A stretch of 34,645 bases of DNA, from contig VGWF01000043.1 in the NCBI GenBank assembly GCA_016873715.1, positions 1 to 34,645 on the forward strand, written 5' to 3'. Below, one piece after another: positions 14,870-33,047 of the stretch (the stretch's first letter is position 1; each line of letters begins with the position of its first letter). Source of the stretch: Lentisphaerota bacterium (GTDB lineage Bacteria; Verrucomicrobiota; Kiritimatiellia; PWTM01). Under the pieces are notes generated by a model. The model had not been told where the DNA came from. It did not search any database and was given only the letters and a program-made list of their open reading frames with translations. The translations under genes and the position numbers were made by a program.

Positions 14870-16288
14870 GTGAAGGCGATTCCAGCCGGGTTGATCTTCG
14901 TCGCGACCGTGATGGCGGCCGGGGTCGCGCAGACCGCGGCGCCGCGTCCGAACGTGCTCGTGATCCTGGCCGACGACCTGGGCTACCAGGATCTCGGCTG
15001 CCAGGGCAGCCCGGACATCCGCACGCCGCACATCGATTCGCTCGCGACGGGCGGCGTCCGGTGCACGAGCGGCTACGTCAGCTCGTGCATGTGTTCGCCG
15101 AGCCGCGCGGGGCTGCTGACGGGGCGGTCGCAGAGCCGCTTCGGGCACGAGATCAACTGGGAGGGCGAGGATCCGACCGGCCGCAAGGGCCTGCCGCTCG
15201 ACCAGCGCACGATCGCCGACCGCCTGAAGGCCGCCGGCTACCGCACGGGCATGGTCGGGAAATGGCACCTCGGCGACGCGCCGCAGTTCCATCCGCTGAA
15301 GCGGGGCTTCGACGAGGCGTTCGGCTTCGTGGGCGGCGGCCACGCCTATTTCTGCGACGAGTATCGCACGCCCGCCGGCGGCAAGCCGGTGCCGGGCTAC
15401 ATGATGCTGCTCGAACGGGACGGCAAACCGGAAAGGACCGGGGGCTACCTGACCGACCTCCTCGGCCGCGAGGCCGCCGCGTTCATCCACCGCAACCGCG
15501 CCGCTCCGTGGTTCCTCTACGCGGCCTTCAACGCGCCGCACACGCCGCTGCAGGCGACGTCGAACCTCCTCGAACGCGTGCGCCACATCCCGGAGGGCGA
15601 CCGCCGGACCTACGCGGCGATGGTCACCGGCCTCGACGATGCCGTCGGCGTCATCCTCGGACAGCTTCGCGCCGACGGCCTGGAGGAGTCGACGCTCGTC
15701 GTCTTCCTCAGCGACAACGGCGGACCGCTCGAGCGCAACGGCTCGCGCAACGTGCCGCTCAGCGGCGAGAAGGGTGGCATGCTCGAGGGCGGCATCCGCG
15801 TGCCGTTCCTCGTCCGGTGGAAGGGCCGGCTGCCCGCCGGCTCGACGTACGACCGGCCGGTCAGCAGCCTCGACCTGGCGCCCACCGCGCTCGCGATGGC
15901 CGGCGTCGCGCCGGAGGCGGACGGGAAGCCCGACGGAGTCGATCTCGTGCCGTTCCTGGCCGGGGAGAGGAGGGGCGATCCGCACGGCGCCCTCTTCTGG
16001 CGCATGAAGGCGCGATCCATCTGGGCGGTCCGCCGCGGCGACGACAAGCTGGTGATGCAACCGGAGCGGAAGGGGAAGCATCCCGGAGGCCCCGCCCCGC
16101 GCCTGATCGATCTCAAGGCCGACCTCGCGGAGACGACCGACCTCGCCCCGGCGCAGCCCGAACGGGCGCGGGCGATGCAGGCCGCCTACGACGCGTGGGC
16201 GGCGACCCTGCCCGAACCGCTATGGGGCGTCGAGAAGGACGAGACCCCGGTGCGCGTCCGCAAGAACGCGAAGGAGAGGAAGCCATGA
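14870..16288 (+). CDS. Secreted sulfatase (type I, CSPSR), second of the series
   Basis: This is a 472-residue sulfatase with a signal peptide (about residues 1-22). The domain opens with PNVLVILADDLGYQDLGCQG, has the formylglycine signature CSPSR at 75-79, then KWHLGDAPQFHPLKRGFDEAFG and FLSDNGGPLERNG. C-terminal LIDLKADLAETTDLA is the usual sulfatase tail. It acts on sulfate esters outside the cytoplasm. The GTG start is supported by GGGGAG at 14857-14862. Its stop overlaps the start of the third sulfatase (ATGA), so the two are coupled. It differs clearly from its neighbours in sequence, suggesting different linkages on the same or related glycans rather than a recent duplication. Confidence 0.88.
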   Translation: MKAIPAGLIFVATVMAAGVAQTAAPRPNVLVILADDLGYQDLGCQGSPDIRTPHIDSLATGGVRCTSGYVSSCMCSPSRAGLLTGRSQSRFGHEINWEGEDPTGRKGLPLDQRTIADRLKAAGYRTGMVGKWHLGDAPQFHPLKRGFDEAFGFVGGGHAYFCDEYRTPAGGKPVPGYMMLLERDGKPERTGGYLTDLLGREAAAFIHRNRAAPWFLYAAFNAPHTPLQATSNLLERVRHIPEGDRRTYAAMVTGLDDAVGVILGQLRADGLEESTLVVFLSDNGGPLERNGSRNVPLSGEKGGMLEGGIRVPFLVRWKGRLPAGSTYDRPVSSLDLAPTALAMAGVAPEADGKPDGVDLVPFLAGERRGDPHGALFWRMKARSIWAVRRGDDKLVMQPERKGKHPGGPAPRLIDLKADLAETTDLAPAQPERARAMQAAYDAWAATLPEPLWGVEKDETPVRVRKNAKERKP

Positions 16289-18591: not shown

Positions 18592-20079
18592 ATGAAGCCA
18601 CGATACACCCCGGCATGGCTTGTCCTGCTTGCCGCTCTTGCGGTTACAGCCGCCGCCGCGCCGAAGCGGCCGAACGTCCTGTTCATCGCGATCGACGACC
18701 AGAACGACTGGGTCGGTCCGCTCGGCGGCCATCCGCTGGTCAAGACCCCGCACCTCGACCGGCTCGCCGCGCGCGGCACGACGTTCCTCAACGCGCACGT
18801 GCAGGCGCCGCTGTGCAACCCGTCGCGCACGAGCCTCATGCTCGGCCTCCGTTCCACGACAACCGGCATTTACGGTCTGGCACCGTGGTTTCGGAACCTG
18901 GAGAGCCTGAAGGACCGCGTCGCGATGCCGCAGCACTTCAAGGCGAACGGGTACCGCACCTTCACGACCGGCAAGATCTACCACGGCGCGGCCGGCGGGC
19001 CGGCCAAGCGGGCGGCCGAGTTCGACGTCTGGGGCCCCGCGGGCGGCATCGGCGCGAAGCCGCCGAAGAAGCTGATCCCGCCGACGCCGATGGGCGACCA
19101 CCCGCTGATGGACTGGGGGTGCTTCCCGCACAACGACGAGGACAAGGGCGACTACCAGATCACGACGTGGGCCGTCGACCGGCTTCGCGAGATGCCGGCG
19201 GAACAGCCGTTCTTCCTCGCCGTCGGCTACTTCCTTCCGCACGTGCCGTGCTACGCGACGCAGAAGTGGTTCGACCTCTATCCCGACGACGATTCCGTCC
19301 TGCCCCCGATGCAGCCCGGCGACCGCGGCGACACGCCGCGCTTCTCGTGGTACACGCATTGGAACCTGCCCGAGCCGCGGCTGAAGTGGGTTCGCGAGAA
19401 CAACCAGTGGCGGAACCTCGTCCGCTCCTACCTCGCATGCACCAGCTTCGTCGACTCGCAGATCGGACGGCTGCTCGACGCGCTCGAGGCCGCGGGGCAG
19501 GCGGAGAACACGGTCGTCGTCGTCTGGGGCGACCACGGCTGGCATCTCGGGGAGAAGGACATCACGGGCAAGAACACGCTGTGGGAGCGGTCGACGCGCG
19601 TCCCGCTGATCTTCGCCGGCCCCGGCGTCGCGAAGGCGGCGCGCTGCATGCGGCCGGCGGAGCTGCTCGACCTCTACCCGACGCTGGTCGACCTCTGCGG
19701 CCTGCCGCCGCGAACGGATCTCGAGGGCCTGAGCCTGAAGCCGCAGCTCGCGGACGCGAAGGCGCCGCGCGAGCGGCCCGCGATCACGTCGCACAACCAG
19801 GGCAACCACGGGATCCGCTCCGAGCGCTGGCGCTACATCCGCTACGCCGACCGCAGCGAAGAGCTCTACGACATGGTCGCGGATCCGAACGAGTGGACGA
19901 ACGTTGTCGGCGACGCGCAACATGCCGGGGTTCTGGGGGAACTGCGCGCGTGGCTGCCGAAGATCGACGTGCCGCTGGCCCCCGGCAGCTCCGACCGCGT
20001 GCTCACCTACGACGCCGCGACCGACGAGGCCGTCTGGGAGGGCAAACCGGTGCGGCGCGGCGATCCGATCCCGGAATGA
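18592..20079 (+). CDS. Secreted sulfatase, iduronate-2-sulfatase-like (CNPSR)
   Basis: This is a 495-residue sulfatase with a signal peptide (about 1-23). It opens PNVLFIAIDDQNDWVGPLGG, a variant typical of iduronate-2-sulfatase-like proteins. The formylglycine signature is CNPSR at 75-79, followed by GLRSTTTGIYG and the WGDHGWHLGEKD motif that characterises this subgroup. It removes sulfate from uronic acid or related residues in characterised relatives; the glycan here is unknown. It has its own promoter and is separated from the sulfatase series by the toxin-antitoxin pair. Its TGA (20077-20079) directly abuts the TCA (reverse stop) of the convergent gene. Confidence 0.88.
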   Translation: MKPRYTPAWLVLLAALAVTAAAAPKRPNVLFIAIDDQNDWVGPLGGHPLVKTPHLDRLAARGTTFLNAHVQAPLCNPSRTSLMLGLRSTTTGIYGLAPWFRNLESLKDRVAMPQHFKANGYRTFTTGKIYHGAAGGPAKRAAEFDVWGPAGGIGAKPPKKLIPPTPMGDHPLMDWGCFPHNDEDKGDYQITTWAVDRLREMPAEQPFFLAVGYFLPHVPCYATQKWFDLYPDDDSVLPPMQPGDRGDTPRFSWYTHWNLPEPRLKWVRENNQWRNLVRSYLACTSFVDSQIGRLLDALEAAGQAENTVVVVWGDHGWHLGEKDITGKNTLWERSTRVPLIFAGPGVAKAARCMRPAELLDLYPTLVDLCGLPPRTDLEGLSLKPQLADAKAPRERPAITSHNQGNHGIRSERWRYIRYADRSEELYDMVADPNEWTNVVGDAQHAGVLGELRAWLPKIDVPLAPGSSDRVLTYDAATDEAVWEGKPVRRGDPIPE

Positions 20080-28109: not shown

Positions 28110-31100
28110 ATGGCTGACCCGGGGGCGCAGATCGCCGGGCTTCCGCGCGGGGCGGCGGGGCTCGTGGCGGGGCTGGGCGCGTTTGCGGTGCTCGCGCAGA
28201 CGATTCTCTTCCGCGCCTTCTTCGAGACCTTCGAGGGAAGCGAGTTCGGCATCGCCGCCTTTTTCGCGTCGTGGCTGGTCTGGGTCGCCGCGGGCGCGGC
28301 GCCGGCCCGGACGCTCGCGCACCGCGCGGGCGCGTGGCCGCGGCTGGCCCTGCTGTCGCTGCTCTACATTCCCGCCGCGGCCGCGCAGCTCGTCCTGATC
28401 GCCCGAGCGCGCGACCTGGCGGGCGTCTCGCCGCACGATCTCTTTCCCGTGCTGCGGATGCTGCCGGCGGCCTTCGTCGTCAACGCGCCGGTGAGCCTGC
28501 TGACCGGTTTCCTCTTCACGGCGGCCTGCGCGGCGGCGCGAGGCACGCCGGGCGCCGTCGCGCGCGTGTATGCCCGGGAGGCACTGGGGGGCGCCGCGGG
28601 CGGGGCGACGGTCACCGTGCTGCTCGCGGCGGGGATCACGGACGAGCGCGCCCTCCTCGTCGGCGCTGCCTGCCTCGCGCTCTCCGCCGCCCCCGCTGCC
28701 GGCGGCACGCGCCGCGCCGCCGCGCCGCTGGCGCTGGCGGCCGGCATCGCGGTTGCGCTGTTCGCCGGGGCGGACGGCTGGTGGACCCGCGCCGCGGACC
28801 TGCGGGCCTGGTCACGCCTTCTCCCGGCGGAGTCCTTCGCCGGACGCTTCGCAACCCCGCAGGCGGTCTACCGCCTCGGCGAGCGCGACGGCGCATGGAT
28901 CGTCCAGTCGCGCGAGTCGGTCGTCGAGACGTTGCCCGCGGACGCGCATGACGCGGAGGTCGCCGCGCTGCATCTCGCCGCCGCGCCGCACGCGAGCCGC
29001 GTGCTCGTAATCGGCCCCGGCTCGCTTGGTGTCGCGCAGGCCTTCCTGCGCGTGCCGTCGGTCCGCGAGGTCGTCTGGCTCCCGCCCGATCCGCAGTATC
29101 CGGCCGCGCTGCTGGAGCGCCTGCCGCGCGGACTCCGCCCGGACTCCGCCCGTTTCAGCGCGCCCGCCCGCGAGACCCGCGCCTTCCTCTCCGGGAAAGG
29201 GCCCGCGTTCGATCTCATCGTCCTGCACGTGCCGGACCCGGTCAGCCTGTCGCTGAACCGCACCGTGTCGCAGGACTTTCTCCGCCTCACGGCCTCGCGC
29301 CTCGCCGAGGGCGGCGTGGCGGGGCTGCGGATGTCGGGCGGGGAGAACTACCTCGGGCCGGAGCTGGCCCGGCTGGGCGCATCGATGCTCGAGACGGCGG
29401 AATCGGTCTTCCGCCACGTGATGCTCAAGCCCGGCGACGAGAGCTGGCTCCTGATGACGGACCGTCTCTCGGACTTCAGCTCCCCGGACCGCATGTCGCG
29501 CCTCTACGCCGCGATCCCCGGCTCCGAGGCCCTGGCGCCGGGCGAGGTCGTCCGCGCCGCCTTCCCGGCGGGGCGCGCCGAGGCGCAGCTCGCGCGCTAC
29601 CGCGCCGCGCAGGAGACGGCGGCGCCCGGCTCGCTGCTCAACCGCGACGCCCATCCGCTGGCGCTCTCCGCGGCGCTCGCGATCGGGCTCAAGCACTCCG
29701 GCGCGCGGTCCGCCGCCGCGGCGTGGCCCGGCGCGGTCCGTCCGGCGGCCTGGGCGCTGGCGTCCGCCCTTGCGGCGCTGGCGCTCCTGCGTTGCGCCGC
29801 GCGGTGGCGGCGACGCGACCCGGGCGCGGCGGTCGTGCCGGCGGGCGACATCGCGCTGCTCGCCGCGGCCGCCGGTGCGGTGGGCATGGCGACGAGCCTT
29901 CTCCTGATGTGCGCGTGGCAGACGCTGCACGGCGGGCTCTTCCTCCACGCCGGCCTTCTCTCCGCGCTCTTCATGCTGGGCCTGTGGGGCGGGGCGGCGG
30001 TCTCCCGCGCCGTCGCAGCCCGCGCGCCGTCCGCGGTCCTGCTGTCGGCGATCCTGCTGCATGCGGCGGCCCTGGCGGTCTTCGCCGCGACGGGAGCGGC
30101 ATGGAGCCGCCCGGTGTTCGCGACGGCGTTCGCGGCGGCCGGAGCGCTGGGCGGTCTCTACGTGCCCGCGGCGGCGTCGCTTCTGGCGCGGCGCGGATCC
30201 GACGACGCATCGTCGGGCGCATGGATCGAGACGCTCGACCACCTCGGCGGCGCCGCGGGGAGCCTCGCGGCCGGGCTCGTCGCGCTGCCGGCGCTGGGCC
30301 TCGGCGGCTCGGCCGCGTTCGTCGGCGCGCTGGTGCTGCTCGTGCTGCCCGCCGCGCTGCCGTTCGCGACCGCGGCCCGGCGCGGCTGCGACGACGCGGC
30401 GGACGTCGCGCTCCGCCGCCTCGGCCTCGCGACGGGCGTCGCGCTGCTCGGCGCCCTCGTCTTCGGCGCGGCGTGGCGTGCCGACCGCGCGCGGGAGGGC
30501 GGCGACCCGCTCGTCCGCGCCGCGCGGGACATGGCGCCGGATGCGCTGTTCCGCCGCATCGACGTGGCGCTGCCCGGCGGACGCACCGCCGCGTGCCACG
30601 TCGCAGGGCCGGAGACGGCGCCCGGGGACCACGTGTTCTCCACCGCGGGGTTCGGCGCGCGGGTGCAGGGCTACGGCGGCACGATCGACCTGGCCCTGCG
30701 CGTCGGGCGCGACGGCGCGCTGCGGGACCTTCGCGTGCTGGCGTCGCGCGAGACACCGCGCTACTTCGCGCGCCTCGACCGCTGGTTCGAATCGCTGCGC
30801 GGACTGAACGTGGGCGATCCCGCGGAGCGGCGGAAGGTCGACGGCGTCAGCGGCGCGACGGTCTCCGCGAACGCGGTGGCCGACGCGATCTTCGCCGCCG
30901 GGCCCGTCTTCGCCGCGGCGGTGCTGGCCGGCGGGACGGGGCCCGGGACCGGGCCGGCGTCCGGCCCGCTGCGGCTCCCGCGCGAGACGCTGCTGCTGGC
31001 GCTCTTCGCCGCCGCGGCGATGGTCCTGCGCCGCTTCGAGGCGCGGGCGTGGGTGCGGCGGCTGTTCCTGATCGCCGTGGTCGGGGTCTTCGGGCTGTGG

Positions 31101-31997
31101 CTTAACGTCCAGTTCTCGCTGTTCCACCTGCGGATGTGGATCGATCCGCCCTGGCCGCGGCCTTCGTGGGGGCTCTCGTTCGTGCTGCCGTTCGCGATCC
31201 CGGCGGTCGTCCTGCTGGCGGGCAACCTCTACTGCGGGTGGCTCTGTCCGTTCGGCGCGCTGCAGGAGCTGGTGCTCGCGCTCCGCCCGCGCCGCTGGCG
31301 CACCGGGCCGCCGCCGTGGGCGTTCCGCTGGGGCCGGTGCGTGAAGTACGCGATGCTGGCCGCGGCCGCGACGGTGTGGGTGATGGAGCCGGCGGCGAGG
31401 CTGTTCGATGCCGATCCGCTGACGGTGGCGTTCTCCGGCGAGGCGACGCGCGGCATGGCGCTGCTGGTGCTGGGCGCGCTCGCGGCGTCGTGGCTCGTGC
31501 CCCGCTTCTGGTGCCGGGTGCTGTGTCCGTCGGGCGCGCTCCTTTCGATCGTCTCGGCGTTGCGTCCGGCGGAACGCCTGTGGCCGCGCGTGCGGCCGCG
31601 TTGCTGCGACCTTGGCGTTCGGGCGCGCAGCGACCTTGACTGCCTCGCCTGCGACCGGTGCAGGGTGGAGGGCGCGGCGGCGGTTCCGGCGGTCGCCCCG
31701 GCGTGGCGGGCCGCGCTCTTCGCGGTGACGGGCCTCGCGGCGTGCGGCGGACTGGTCTCGCTGGCGGCGAGGCACGCCGCGCCTCCGGCCGCCAGCCCGG
31801 CGCCGGAGGAGGCCGCACCCGCGGCAGAAACCGGCACGGCCCTCTCCGCGGACCAGATGCGGGAGATCCGTCGGCGGATGCAGGAAGGCCGGCTGTCGTC
31901 GCGCGAGGCGCTCTTCTACTCGGCGGCGACCAACACCCCGTCGCCGCCGGCCGGCGGCCGGCAGCGGCGGAGGGGGCTGGGACGGGATGAGCGATGA
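28110..31997 (+). CDS. Membrane fusion: spermidine-synthase-like + FMN-binding + NapH-like iron-sulfur
   Basis: This is a 1295-residue polytopic membrane protein. The N-terminal part has several hydrophobic segments, then a spermidine-synthase-like Rossmann domain (VLVIGPGSLGVAQAF, about 298-312), then further membrane segments. Residues about 840-935 form an NosR/RnfG-type FMN-binding domain; DGVSGAT (911-917) is the flavinylation motif, with T917 the likely covalent FMN site. After more membrane segments come NapH-like motifs: CGWLCP (C1042, C1046), CRVLCP (C1135, C1139) and a Cys-rich CLACDRC segment. It probably moves electrons across or along the membrane; partners are unknown. The C-terminal residues (PPAGGRQRRRGLGRDER) end in heptamer repeats. 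A -10-like TACGAT lies 8 bp before the ATG and there is no ribosome-binding site. Confidence 0.75.
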   Translation: MADPGAQIAGLPRGAAGLVAGLGAFAVLAQTILFRAFFETFEGSEFGIAAFFASWLVWVAAGAAPARTLAHRAGAWPRLALLSLLYIPAAAAQLVLIARARDLAGVSPHDLFPVLRMLPAAFVVNAPVSLLTGFLFTAACAAARGTPGAVARVYAREALGGAAGGATVTVLLAAGITDERALLVGAACLALSAAPAAGGTRRAAAPLALAAGIAVALFAGADGWWTRAADLRAWSRLLPAESFAGRFATPQAVYRLGERDGAWIVQSRESVVETLPADAHDAEVAALHLAAAPHASRVLVIGPGSLGVAQAFLRVPSVREVVWLPPDPQYPAALLERLPRGLRPDSARFSAPARETRAFLSGKGPAFDLIVLHVPDPVSLSLNRTVSQDFLRLTASRLAEGGVAGLRMSGGENYLGPELARLGASMLETAESVFRHVMLKPGDESWLLMTDRLSDFSSPDRMSRLYAAIPGSEALAPGEVVRAAFPAGRAEAQLARYRAAQETAAPGSLLNRDAHPLALSAALAIGLKHSGARSAAAAWPGAVRPAAWALASALAALALLRCAARWRRRDPGAAVVPAGDIALLAAAAGAVGMATSLLLMCAWQTLHGGLFLHAGLLSALFMLGLWGGAAVSRAVAARAPSAVLLSAILLHAAALAVFAATGAAWSRPVFATAFAAAGALGGLYVPAAASLLARRGSDDASSGAWIETLDHLGGAAGSLAAGLVALPALGLGGSAAFVGALVLLVLPAALPFATAARRGCDDAADVALRRLGLATGVALLGALVFGAAWRADRAREGGDPLVRAARDMAPDALFRRIDVALPGGRTAACHVAGPETAPGDHVFSTAGFGARVQGYGGTIDLALRVGRDGALRDLRVLASRETPRYFARLDRWFESLRGLNVGDPAERRKVDGVSGATVSANAVADAIFAAGPVFAAAVLAGGTGPGTGPASGPLRLPRETLLLALFAAAAMVLRRFEARAWVRRLFLIAVVGVFGLWLNVQFSLFHLRMWIDPPWPRPSWGLSFVLPFAIPAVVLLAGNLYCGWLCPFGALQELVLALRPRRWRTGPPPWAFRWGRCVKYAMLAAAATVWVMEPAARLFDADPLTVAFSGEATRGMALLVLGALAASWLVPRFWCRVLCPSGALLSIVSALRPAERLWPRVRPRCCDLGVRARSDLDCLACDRCRVEGAAAVPAVAPAWRAALFAVTGLAACGGLVSLAARHAAPPAASPAPEEAAPAAETGTALSADQMREIRRRMQEGRLSSREALFYSAATNTPSPPAGGRQRRRGLGRDER

Positions 31998-32013
31998 GGG
32001 ATGGAGGAGGAGG
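31979..32013. repeat. Heptamers at the end of the fusion gene
   Basis: GGGACGG, GATGAGC, GATGAGG, GATGGAG and GAGGAGG occupy 31979-32013. The gene's TGA at 31995-31997 lies inside the third unit. A separate pyrimidine/purine heptamer set (AACTTGA, AACTTGG, AACTTCC) follows at 32155-32175. Confidence 0.55.
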
Positions 32014-32154
32014 ACCGGGCGATGATCGCGGCTCGTCGGGGGAGGGGAAGGGTCGAAGGCTGGCGGGCATGAAACGAACCCCCGTGATTCCCGGAGTCCT
32101 CGCCGCGGCGGTGCCGCCGCGCGCGGCCGGTGCGCCGCCGCGCCCGAACCCTGC

Positions 32155-32175
32155 AACTTGAAACTTGGAACTTCC
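32155..32175. repeat. Three AACTTGG-type heptamers before the CpXC gene
   Basis: AACTTGA, AACTTGG and AACTTCC are consecutive 7-mers, 27 bp before the ATG of the CpXC gene. No other feature is visible in the 157 bp between the two repeat sets. Confidence 0.5.
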
Positions 32176-32201
32176 CCCGGTTTCCCCGACACTCCGCGGC
32201 C

Positions 32202-32867
32202 ATGTCGATCGCACGTCCCTATCCGATCCGATGCCCGAAGTGCGGCGCCGAGGCGGAGGTCCGCCTCTACGACTCGATCAACGTCGGCGAGGACCCGCAG
32301 CTCCGCGAGGATCTCATGGCCAACCGCCTCAACGCGGTGACCTGCGGCGCCTGCTCGTTCCAGTACCGCGTCGACAAGCCGCTGCTCTACATGGACCCCG
32401 CGCGCGAGTTCGCGGTGTGGTGGACCCCCGAGGGTGCGGCGGATCCGGCCAAGGCCGACGACGAATACCGTCGCATGCAGGATTCCCTCCGGGAGGCTCC
32501 GGGGCGGCCGGACCTGAAGCTGCACCTCGTCCACGAGCGCGTCGAACTCGTCGAGCGCATCTTCCTCCTCGAGGCCGGTCTCGACGAGCGGCTGATCGAG
32601 TACGTGAAGTACCTGATCTTCTCGAAGAACGCCCGCAAGGTGGACCCGCGGACCCGGCGGCTGCTCTTCAACGCGCAGGACTCCGACCCGGAGAGCCTCT
32701 GCTTCGTCGTGCAGGACGTCGAGAGCCGCCGCCTCGAGGGCGTCCTGAAGTACGACCGCAAGATGCTGTCGGATCTCGAGACGATGTTCGCCAACAACCC
32801 GACGCAGCCCCTCGCGGAGCTCTTCCCGCACCCCTACGTCAGCGCCCGGAAGCTGATGCTCGACTGA
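32202..32867 (+). CDS. CpXC-domain protein
   Basis: This is a 221-residue protein. Residues 1-60 match the CpXC domain: CPKC at 11-14 (C11, C14) and CGAC at 48-51 (C48, C51), which should form a zinc ribbon. A helical, acidic and hydrophobic remainder follows (LHLVHERVELVERIFLLEAGLDERLIEYVKYL). The domain's function is not established. There is no clear ribosome-binding site. It is preceded by heptamers and followed within 13 bp by a PIN-domain remnant. Confidence 0.75.
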   Translation: MSIARPYPIRCPKCGAEAEVRLYDSINVGEDPQLREDLMANRLNAVTCGACSFQYRVDKPLLYMDPAREFAVWWTPEGAADPAKADDEYRRMQDSLREAPGRPDLKLHLVHERVELVERIFLLEAGLDERLIEYVKYLIFSKNARKVDPRTRRLLFNAQDSDPESLCFVVQDVESRRLEGVLKYDRKMLSDLETMFANNPTQPLAELFPHPYVSARKLMLD

Positions 32868-32879
32868 CGCCGGGGATCC

Positions 32880-32993
32880 AACACGGACTTCCTCCTCTGT
32901 GCCGTCGCGATTCGGACCGGCATGGCCGTCTATACGCAGGACCGCGACTTCGCGCTCTTCGCCCGGCACCTTCCCGTCGTTCTTCACGCCCCC
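32880..32993 (+). pseudogene. C-terminal remnant of a PIN-domain (VapC-like) gene
   Basis: The frame encodes NTDFLLCAVAIRTGMAVYTQ then DRDFALFARHLPVVLH, the C-terminal half of a PIN domain, including the NDxL-type and DRDF motifs. No N-terminal part precedes it, since the CpXC stop is 13 bp upstream. The frame runs on to 33263 through repeat sequence, but this is not coding. It is probably the leftover of a VapBC toxin. Confidence 0.5.
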
Positions 32994-33047
32994 ACCGGGG
33001 GGCGCATCTCCGATCACGCGCACGACGACGACGCTCGCACGGGCTTT

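Follow-up and report, generated by a model that had tools for sequence, protein, structure and literature searches.

On contig VGWF01000043.1 of a Lentisphaerota bacterium (class Kiritimatiellia), a stretch of 34,645 nucleotides analysed here at full length (the window), the gene at positions 28110-31997 of the plus strand encodes a 1295-residue protein in which a transporter-like half with a spermidine-synthase (SpeE)-like domain is followed by a membrane module with predicted sites for covalent flavin mononucleotide (FMN) and iron-sulfur (Fe-S) clusters. We propose that this fusion probably acts with AmmeMemoRadiSam (AMR) as its membrane partner for transport and electron transfer, because in relatives both the fusion and stand-alone forms of its N-terminal half recur beside the AMR radical-SAM (rSAM) gene and a Memo-AMMECR1 gene. 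An original prediction, made from the letters of the window, had described the gene as a fusion of polyamine-synthase-like, flavinylated and Fe-S membrane domains; the fusion turned out to be conserved, but its genomic link to AMR had been overlooked.

Conservation of the fusion and its genomic neighbourhood

The open reading frame (ORF) 28110-31997 (+) starts with ATG and spans 1295 codons, which encode, in this order, a first major facilitator superfamily (MFS)-like half, the SpeE-fold domain, a second MFS-like half, a transmembrane (TM) segment, an FMN_bind domain, a NapH-like module and a C-terminal tail. When the protein was used as query against 38 genomes, its own included, 28 contained some match and 13 a match of near full length. 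A profile built from these 13 proteins found matches in 63 of the 193 genomes searched from the class. Of these 193 genomes, 25 contain the N-terminal module together with a complete FMN-NapH module; 22 of them have both within one open frame, while in the remaining three (G132, G144, G151) contig ends or a change of frame interrupt the gene. The 38 further genomes with a match mostly carry the N-terminal half alone. Moreover, a fusion of 1324 residues is present in a genome from a different class of the same phylum (G230).

The claim of a genuine fusion of SpeE-like, flavin and Fe-S membrane parts is thus borne out, and relatives share the architecture. The chance that the gene is a false fusion created by assembly error is negligible: G004 has the FMN-NapH half alone, with a start resembling a signal peptide, a variant in G024 (L046 4016-7039) combines the transporter-SpeE part and FMN_bind with no Fer4_5 match, and the two halves of G151 sit in different frames, yet an uninterrupted frame for the whole architecture in 22 genomes, and in one genome of another class, rules this explanation out. 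A split into separate proteins, which the original prediction had named as the sign of a false fusion, was found in one relative only, G004.

In a tree of 61 N-terminal modules (rows with fewer than 650 model positions were dropped from the tree and from residue counts), one branch with a support of 100 separates the fusion forms (23 rows) from the stand-alone forms (38 rows); the tree was built by a quick method, and its own checks flag a risk of long-branch attraction. As the two forms lie on two sides of a single branch, one fusion event in one lineage would be the simplest reading. On the same quick tree, midpoint-rooted, the G024 variant is the first branch among the fusions.

The window is GC-rich, and gene calls and neighbour clustering used homologue-trained models. 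Unbiased clustering of the genes around 68 loci from 63 genomes yielded only two widely recurring families, the AMR rSAM enzyme, found in 34 of 63 genomes if a few divergent copies are counted, and Memo-AMMECR1, found in 23 of 63; the next family reached 8. Tested representatives scored over the cut-offs of the NCBIfam models TIGR04337 (AmmeMemoRadiSam radical SAM enzyme), TIGR04336 (protein B, Memo) and TIGR04335 (protein A, AMMECR1). In relatives the block reads rSAM, Memo-AMMECR1, fusion protein, and the adjacent genes are largely co-oriented. AMR genes lie within 5 kb of 13/25 fusion loci, or in 14/25 genomes if G132 is counted, where the 5' part is on another contig, and within 5 kb of 25/40 stand-alone transporter-SpeE loci; here L152, the 5' part of the G132 fusion, was counted with the fusions, which reduced the stand-alone loci from 41 to 40, and G014, spread over two contigs, contributes two of the 40. 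The stand-alone protein is the commoner AMR neighbour. In the ten fusion loci or fragments with a nearby AMMECR1 gene, this gene is always on the same strand and within 75 nt in seven cases; the rSAM gene adjoining stand-alone forms is often on the opposite strand.

Outside the class, N-terminal modules were found in five genomes, all five with the rSAM gene beside them. Of special interest is G230 (L163), in which rSAM, a Memo-AMMECR1 protein of 499 residues and the 1324-residue fusion stand in a row. Two further N-terminal modules of the same class (G051 and G028), with no rSAM gene on the same contig, fall outside the linkage counts. Memo was detected in 18/18 genomes tested and rSAM in 18/18 and 45/46. 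Across the tree, AMR linkage switches between present and absent 12 times.

A divergent radical-SAM protein (L049 2876-4006, L050 10501-11583, L111, L117, L132) is the neighbour of stand-alone transporter-SpeE proteins that form a divergent clade; the L049 and L050 copies score far under the TIGR04337 cut-off. This hints that the transporter-SpeE module may pair with radical-SAM enzymes more widely.

The transporter-SpeE half

The AlphaFold2 model of the N-terminal 802 residues reached a mean pLDDT of 91.2 and a pTM of 0.91. Structure matches to MFS proteins span nearly the whole model, namely SV2A (Z 25.7, rmsd 4.3, 354 aligned residues), NorC (Z 21.4, rmsd 4.5, 322 aligned) and MtEfpA (Z 18.8, rmsd 4.7, 353 aligned), and through them two six-helix halves in the MFS arrangement could be recognised. 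The spermidine synthase 3anx_A matched the same model with Z 24.8 (rmsd 3.6, 291 aligned). Taken together, these matches suggest that the flanking helices form one MFS unit with the SpeE-like domain inserted mid-way, so that the modelled half apparently adopts an MFS fold of 14 helices with a SpeE fold in its middle. NorC and EfpA are 14-helix carriers. The hydropathy of the 61 rows agrees with an order of six helices, then helix A as an additional one, the SpeE domain, a second additional helix (B) and the last six helices, although the stretch assigned to TM11 is weakly hydrophobic (median 1.07). In the window protein, model, structure match and hydropathy place the first MFS half with helix A, about seven TM helices, at residues 13-221 (28146-28772, +), and helix B with the second half at residues 533-743 (29706-30338, +). 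The domain list of the original prediction, which gave SpeE-like, FMN and NapH-like parts, stands as far as it went, but it missed the MFS fold of the remaining N-terminal half.

Single-sequence profile searches recover little of this arrangement. Pfam MFS gave no match on the window protein at E<=1, and the homologue L038 matched MFS_1 under its cut-off (E 1.9e-4, 20.9 bits versus 33.4 needed). NF037959 (fused MFS/spermidine synthase) was not among the NCBIfam matches of the window protein at E<=1, and L048 scored 35.2 against its cut-off of 40. Spermine_synth (E 0.3) and the aminopropyltransferase model PRK03612 (7.6e-11 across residues 289-404) matched the window protein under their cut-offs. 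The profile of the family (61 rows), by comparison, matched the Thermus thermophilus aminopropyltransferase 3anx with E 7.1e-42. The SpeE-like assignment is hence weak for the single sequence and firm for the family, in which profile, structure match and topology put the domain at residues 230-530 (28797-29699, +).

With regard to sidedness, lysine/arginine (K/R) outweighs aspartate/glutamate (D/E) in the predicted inside loops 2-3 (3.3 versus 0.5), 6-A (2.6 versus 0.2), B-7 (3.9 versus 1.0) and 8-9 (3.3 versus 0.8), while the clear outside loops show 0.0 versus 1.5 (1-2) and 0.2 versus 0.1 (7-8); the charge of loops 3-4, 4-5 and 9-10 gives no decision. Hydropathy and this charge bias predict that the SpeE-like domain lies outside the cytosol.

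The residues expected of an aminopropyltransferase are largely absent from the fusions. At the position which we take to bind ribose, an acid is kept in 36/38 stand-alone rows versus 5/23 fusions (P325 in the window protein), and the presumed first catalytic Asp of the DxxDP motif is kept in 8/38 versus 1/23 (H373 in the window protein). Since both residues are lost in the window protein, aminopropyl transfer, and with it polyamine synthesis, appears unlikely for its SpeE-like domain. The idea of a membrane-bound polyamine synthase and exporter, which would make and move spermidine-like molecules, can draw on the clear aminopropyltransferase fold and profile match; the same residue counts and the fact that a SAM-type substrate is not expected outside the cytosol make it very improbable, and it was dropped on account of the lost ribose-binding acid and catalytic Asp. 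In this respect the spermidine-synthase-like Rossmann domain of the original prediction is right as to fold and family, but not as to key residues. In the fused MFS/spermidine synthases (NF037959) and the membrane aminopropyltransferases of PRK03612, a single chain likewise holds membrane helices together with a spermidine-synthase domain. There the SpeE domain stands at the end, whereas in the fusion it stands between the MFS halves, has lost ligand and catalytic residues and is accompanied by an added redox half.

The predicted flavin and iron-sulfur half

A TM anchor at residues 762-796 (30393-30497, +), which according to charge bias and model runs to the extracytosolic side, leads into the FMN_bind domain (residues 854-928, 30669-30893, +; Pfam 1.7e-10). 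Its DGVSGAT motif contains T917 (codon 30858-30860, +), which aligns with the GAT motif of RnfG and is the predicted FMN attachment site, just as had been proposed. In the following NapH-like module (Fer4_5, 2.8e-13, in two stretches), two CxxxCP motifs, C1042-P1047 (31233-31250, +) and C1135-P1140 (31512-31529, +; Pro in at least 90% of rows), are predicted to lie in cytosolic loops. T917 and the four CxxxCP cysteines are invariant in 13/13 aligned full-length proteins. In all 26 C-terminal modules, T917 and eight cysteines are invariant, as the set C1166-x11-C1178-x2-C1181-x2-C1184 (31605-31661, +), which had been missed before, is conserved beyond the CxxxCP motifs; its four cysteines are candidate ligands of one Fe-S cluster. 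After the last TM helix, the tail carries a motif LSxxEAxxY (residues 1262-1270, 31893-31919, +), with L1262, S1263, A1267 and Y1270 invariant in 13/13 proteins.

The C-terminal model reached a pLDDT of 81.6 and a pTM of 0.78. Fold comparison covered model residues 10-166, that is the FMN part, with the NapH-like helices outside it, and gave RnfG 9eri_G (Z 13.3, rmsd 3.3, 144 aligned) and NqrC (Z 12.3). The FMN domain shares fold and flavinylation motif with RnfG and NqrC, but the fusion is a multidomain membrane protein and no Rnf or Nqr subunit. The flavin transferase candidate ApbE, which the original prediction had called for, occurs in two copies in the window's genome, one of them within the block of Nqr genes of a separate Nqr operon. 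ApbE is present in 27/27 genomes with the FMN module versus 29/36 with the stand-alone form only; among the listed ApbE genes of the 25 fusion genomes, none is on the same contig as the fusion gene.

With the FMN_bind threonine in an S/T-GAT motif, two CxxxCP motifs in a Fer4_5/NapH module and a genomic ApbE, the C-terminal half is by its sequence a NapH-like module with predicted flavinylation, in which T917 would carry FMN and the cysteines would bind Fe-S clusters. By charge bias, the FMN domain would lie outside and both CxxxCP loops, together with the C1166-C1184 set, probably in the cytosol; for the FMN domain, the signal-peptide-like start in G004 points the same way, both being sequence-based signs. 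As for the proposed NapH-like clusters, the motifs are there and their cysteines invariant, but the motifs alone are no proof: in the part of the PceC study consulted, the FMN domain is located outside the membrane and CxxxCP is left open as cluster or disulphide (PMC5928378).

FMN-NapH proteins such as NosR and PceC/RdhC have been described, in the sections of the source covered, as a widespread system with mostly unknown partners, whose named members serve extracytosolic oxidoreductases (eLife 2021, PMC8238504). The fusion has in common with them the FMN_bind domain (predicted to be extracytosolic in the fusion) with its threonine site, the NapH-type TM module, two CxxxCP motifs and a genomic ApbE. 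It differs by the preceding transporter-SpeE half, by the single cysteine set C1166...C1184 in place of two ferredoxin motifs, and by its link to AMR in relatives, with no linked reductase among the neighbours.

Proposed role and alternatives

These resemblances raise the option of a generic NapH/NosR/PceC-like carrier feeding an unidentified extracytosolic reductase, with the transporter-SpeE half as scaffold and the AMR linkage as a relic. In its favour, the FMN-NapH half alone corresponds to the described system (PMC8238504, in part), NosR and RnfG models match that half, if under cut-off, the fusion gene of the window's genome is not linked to AMR, and Nqr with ApbE exists there. We nevertheless consider this option rather unlikely, as the transporter-SpeE half is AMR-linked in 25/40 loci even where it lacks the redox part, the linkage recurs over many families and other classes, and no reductase gene appeared among the recurring neighbours of the 68 clustered loci.

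In the AMR partnership that we favour, the cytosolic AMR enzymes would make a molecule which the MFS/SpeE part could carry, or hold at the outer face, the extracytosolic SpeE-fold domain being catalytically repurposed. Electrons from the quinol/quinone side or from a cytosolic donor could enter the NapH-type cysteine centres facing the cytosol, pass to FMN on T917 outside and there be spent on, or taken from, the molecule handled by the carrier. The FMN and Fe-S electron wire would have been added once, in one lineage, to the transporter-SpeE carrier. More tentatively, AMR in this phylum could be a membrane-coupled redox pathway, in which a dedicated MFS carrier with an extracytosolic SpeE-fold domain moves a product of radical-SAM chemistry, and a covalent flavin, connected across the membrane within the same polypeptide, reduces or oxidises it outside. 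The three AMR proteins themselves (TIGR04335, TIGR04336, TIGR04337) are, in contrast to what is proposed for the fusion, not membrane electron carriers.

Electron flow outward seems likelier than inward. Radical-SAM enzymes depend on a donor of single electrons, and charge bias puts both CxxxCP loops and the extra cysteine set on the cytosolic side, so that the FMN and Fe-S centres might instead supply the AMR enzyme with electrons from outside or from quinol. Stand-alone members lacking the redox half and the extracytosolic partners of the FMN-NapH relatives, as reported in the part of PMC8238504 considered, argue against such a supply, to which we give little credence.

Several points weigh against the proposed partnership. 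The window's own genome has its AMR genes elsewhere, Memo-AMMECR1 on contig C146 and rSAM on C18 and C19, while the window is C43, and no AMR gene lies in the fetched flank of 11/25 fusion genomes, the window's included, several contigs being short. Kinship of the genomes inflates the linkage counts, and binomials for linkage (12/23 and 24/38, taking 1.5% and 5% as the rates expected by chance) were computed as if genomes were unrelated. The extracytosolic placement of the SpeE domain is drawn solely from hydropathy and charge bias, and the acid at the ribose position in 36/38 stand-alone members would be in keeping with a nucleotide as ligand and a site in the cytosol. Finally, as no function of AMR itself was found in the papers searched, the biochemical role of the fusion protein is tentative.

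The open PubMed Central papers searched contained no description of the fusion or of MFS/spermidine synthase proteins of this kind, no membrane or electron-transfer partner of AMR and no AMR function. In the available portions, spermidine, spermine and polyamine go unmentioned in PMC8238504, as do spermidine, polyamine and NapH in PMC11334425. The verdict of an undescribed electron-transfer protein accordingly applies to the fusion as a whole, but not to its FMN-NapH half, which alone is a described system (PMC8238504, in part). Both halves are of known kinds; as far as searched, their combination and genomic place are new.

AMR proteins are widespread, and a membrane partner with readable chemistry, i.e., a transporter-like fold, a flavin that is probably covalent, and cysteine centres, offers a handle on the site and reaction type of AMR. 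Memo and AMMECR1 reach humans, where their roles are unclear. If true, the proposal would also mean that a spermidine-synthase fold acts on the extracytosolic side, and it would place protein flavinylation in a new context.

Further genes recur near the two forms. A small gene starts within the fusion stop in two close relatives (L034 11956-12303, with a DUF3221 match, and L035 7649-8005); at that position the window has only an unrelated-looking ORF of 55 residues. A radical-SAM protein of 325 residues with a BATS domain lies near or next to the fusion at L044 6318-7295 and in four more genomes of one family (Pfam match from the L044 copy only). Genes for a glycosyltransferase and for a protein resembling lipid A acyltransferase are repeatedly found near stand-alone forms, each in five genomes (L112 1243-2862 and similar; Pfam matches from the L112 copies). 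In the window itself, an antisense ORF of 1403 residues (28812-33023, -) overlaps the fusion gene and exceeds its length, as a GC-rich shadow frame, and two sulfatase genes (14870-16288 and 18592-20079, +) suggest degradation of sulfated polysaccharides.

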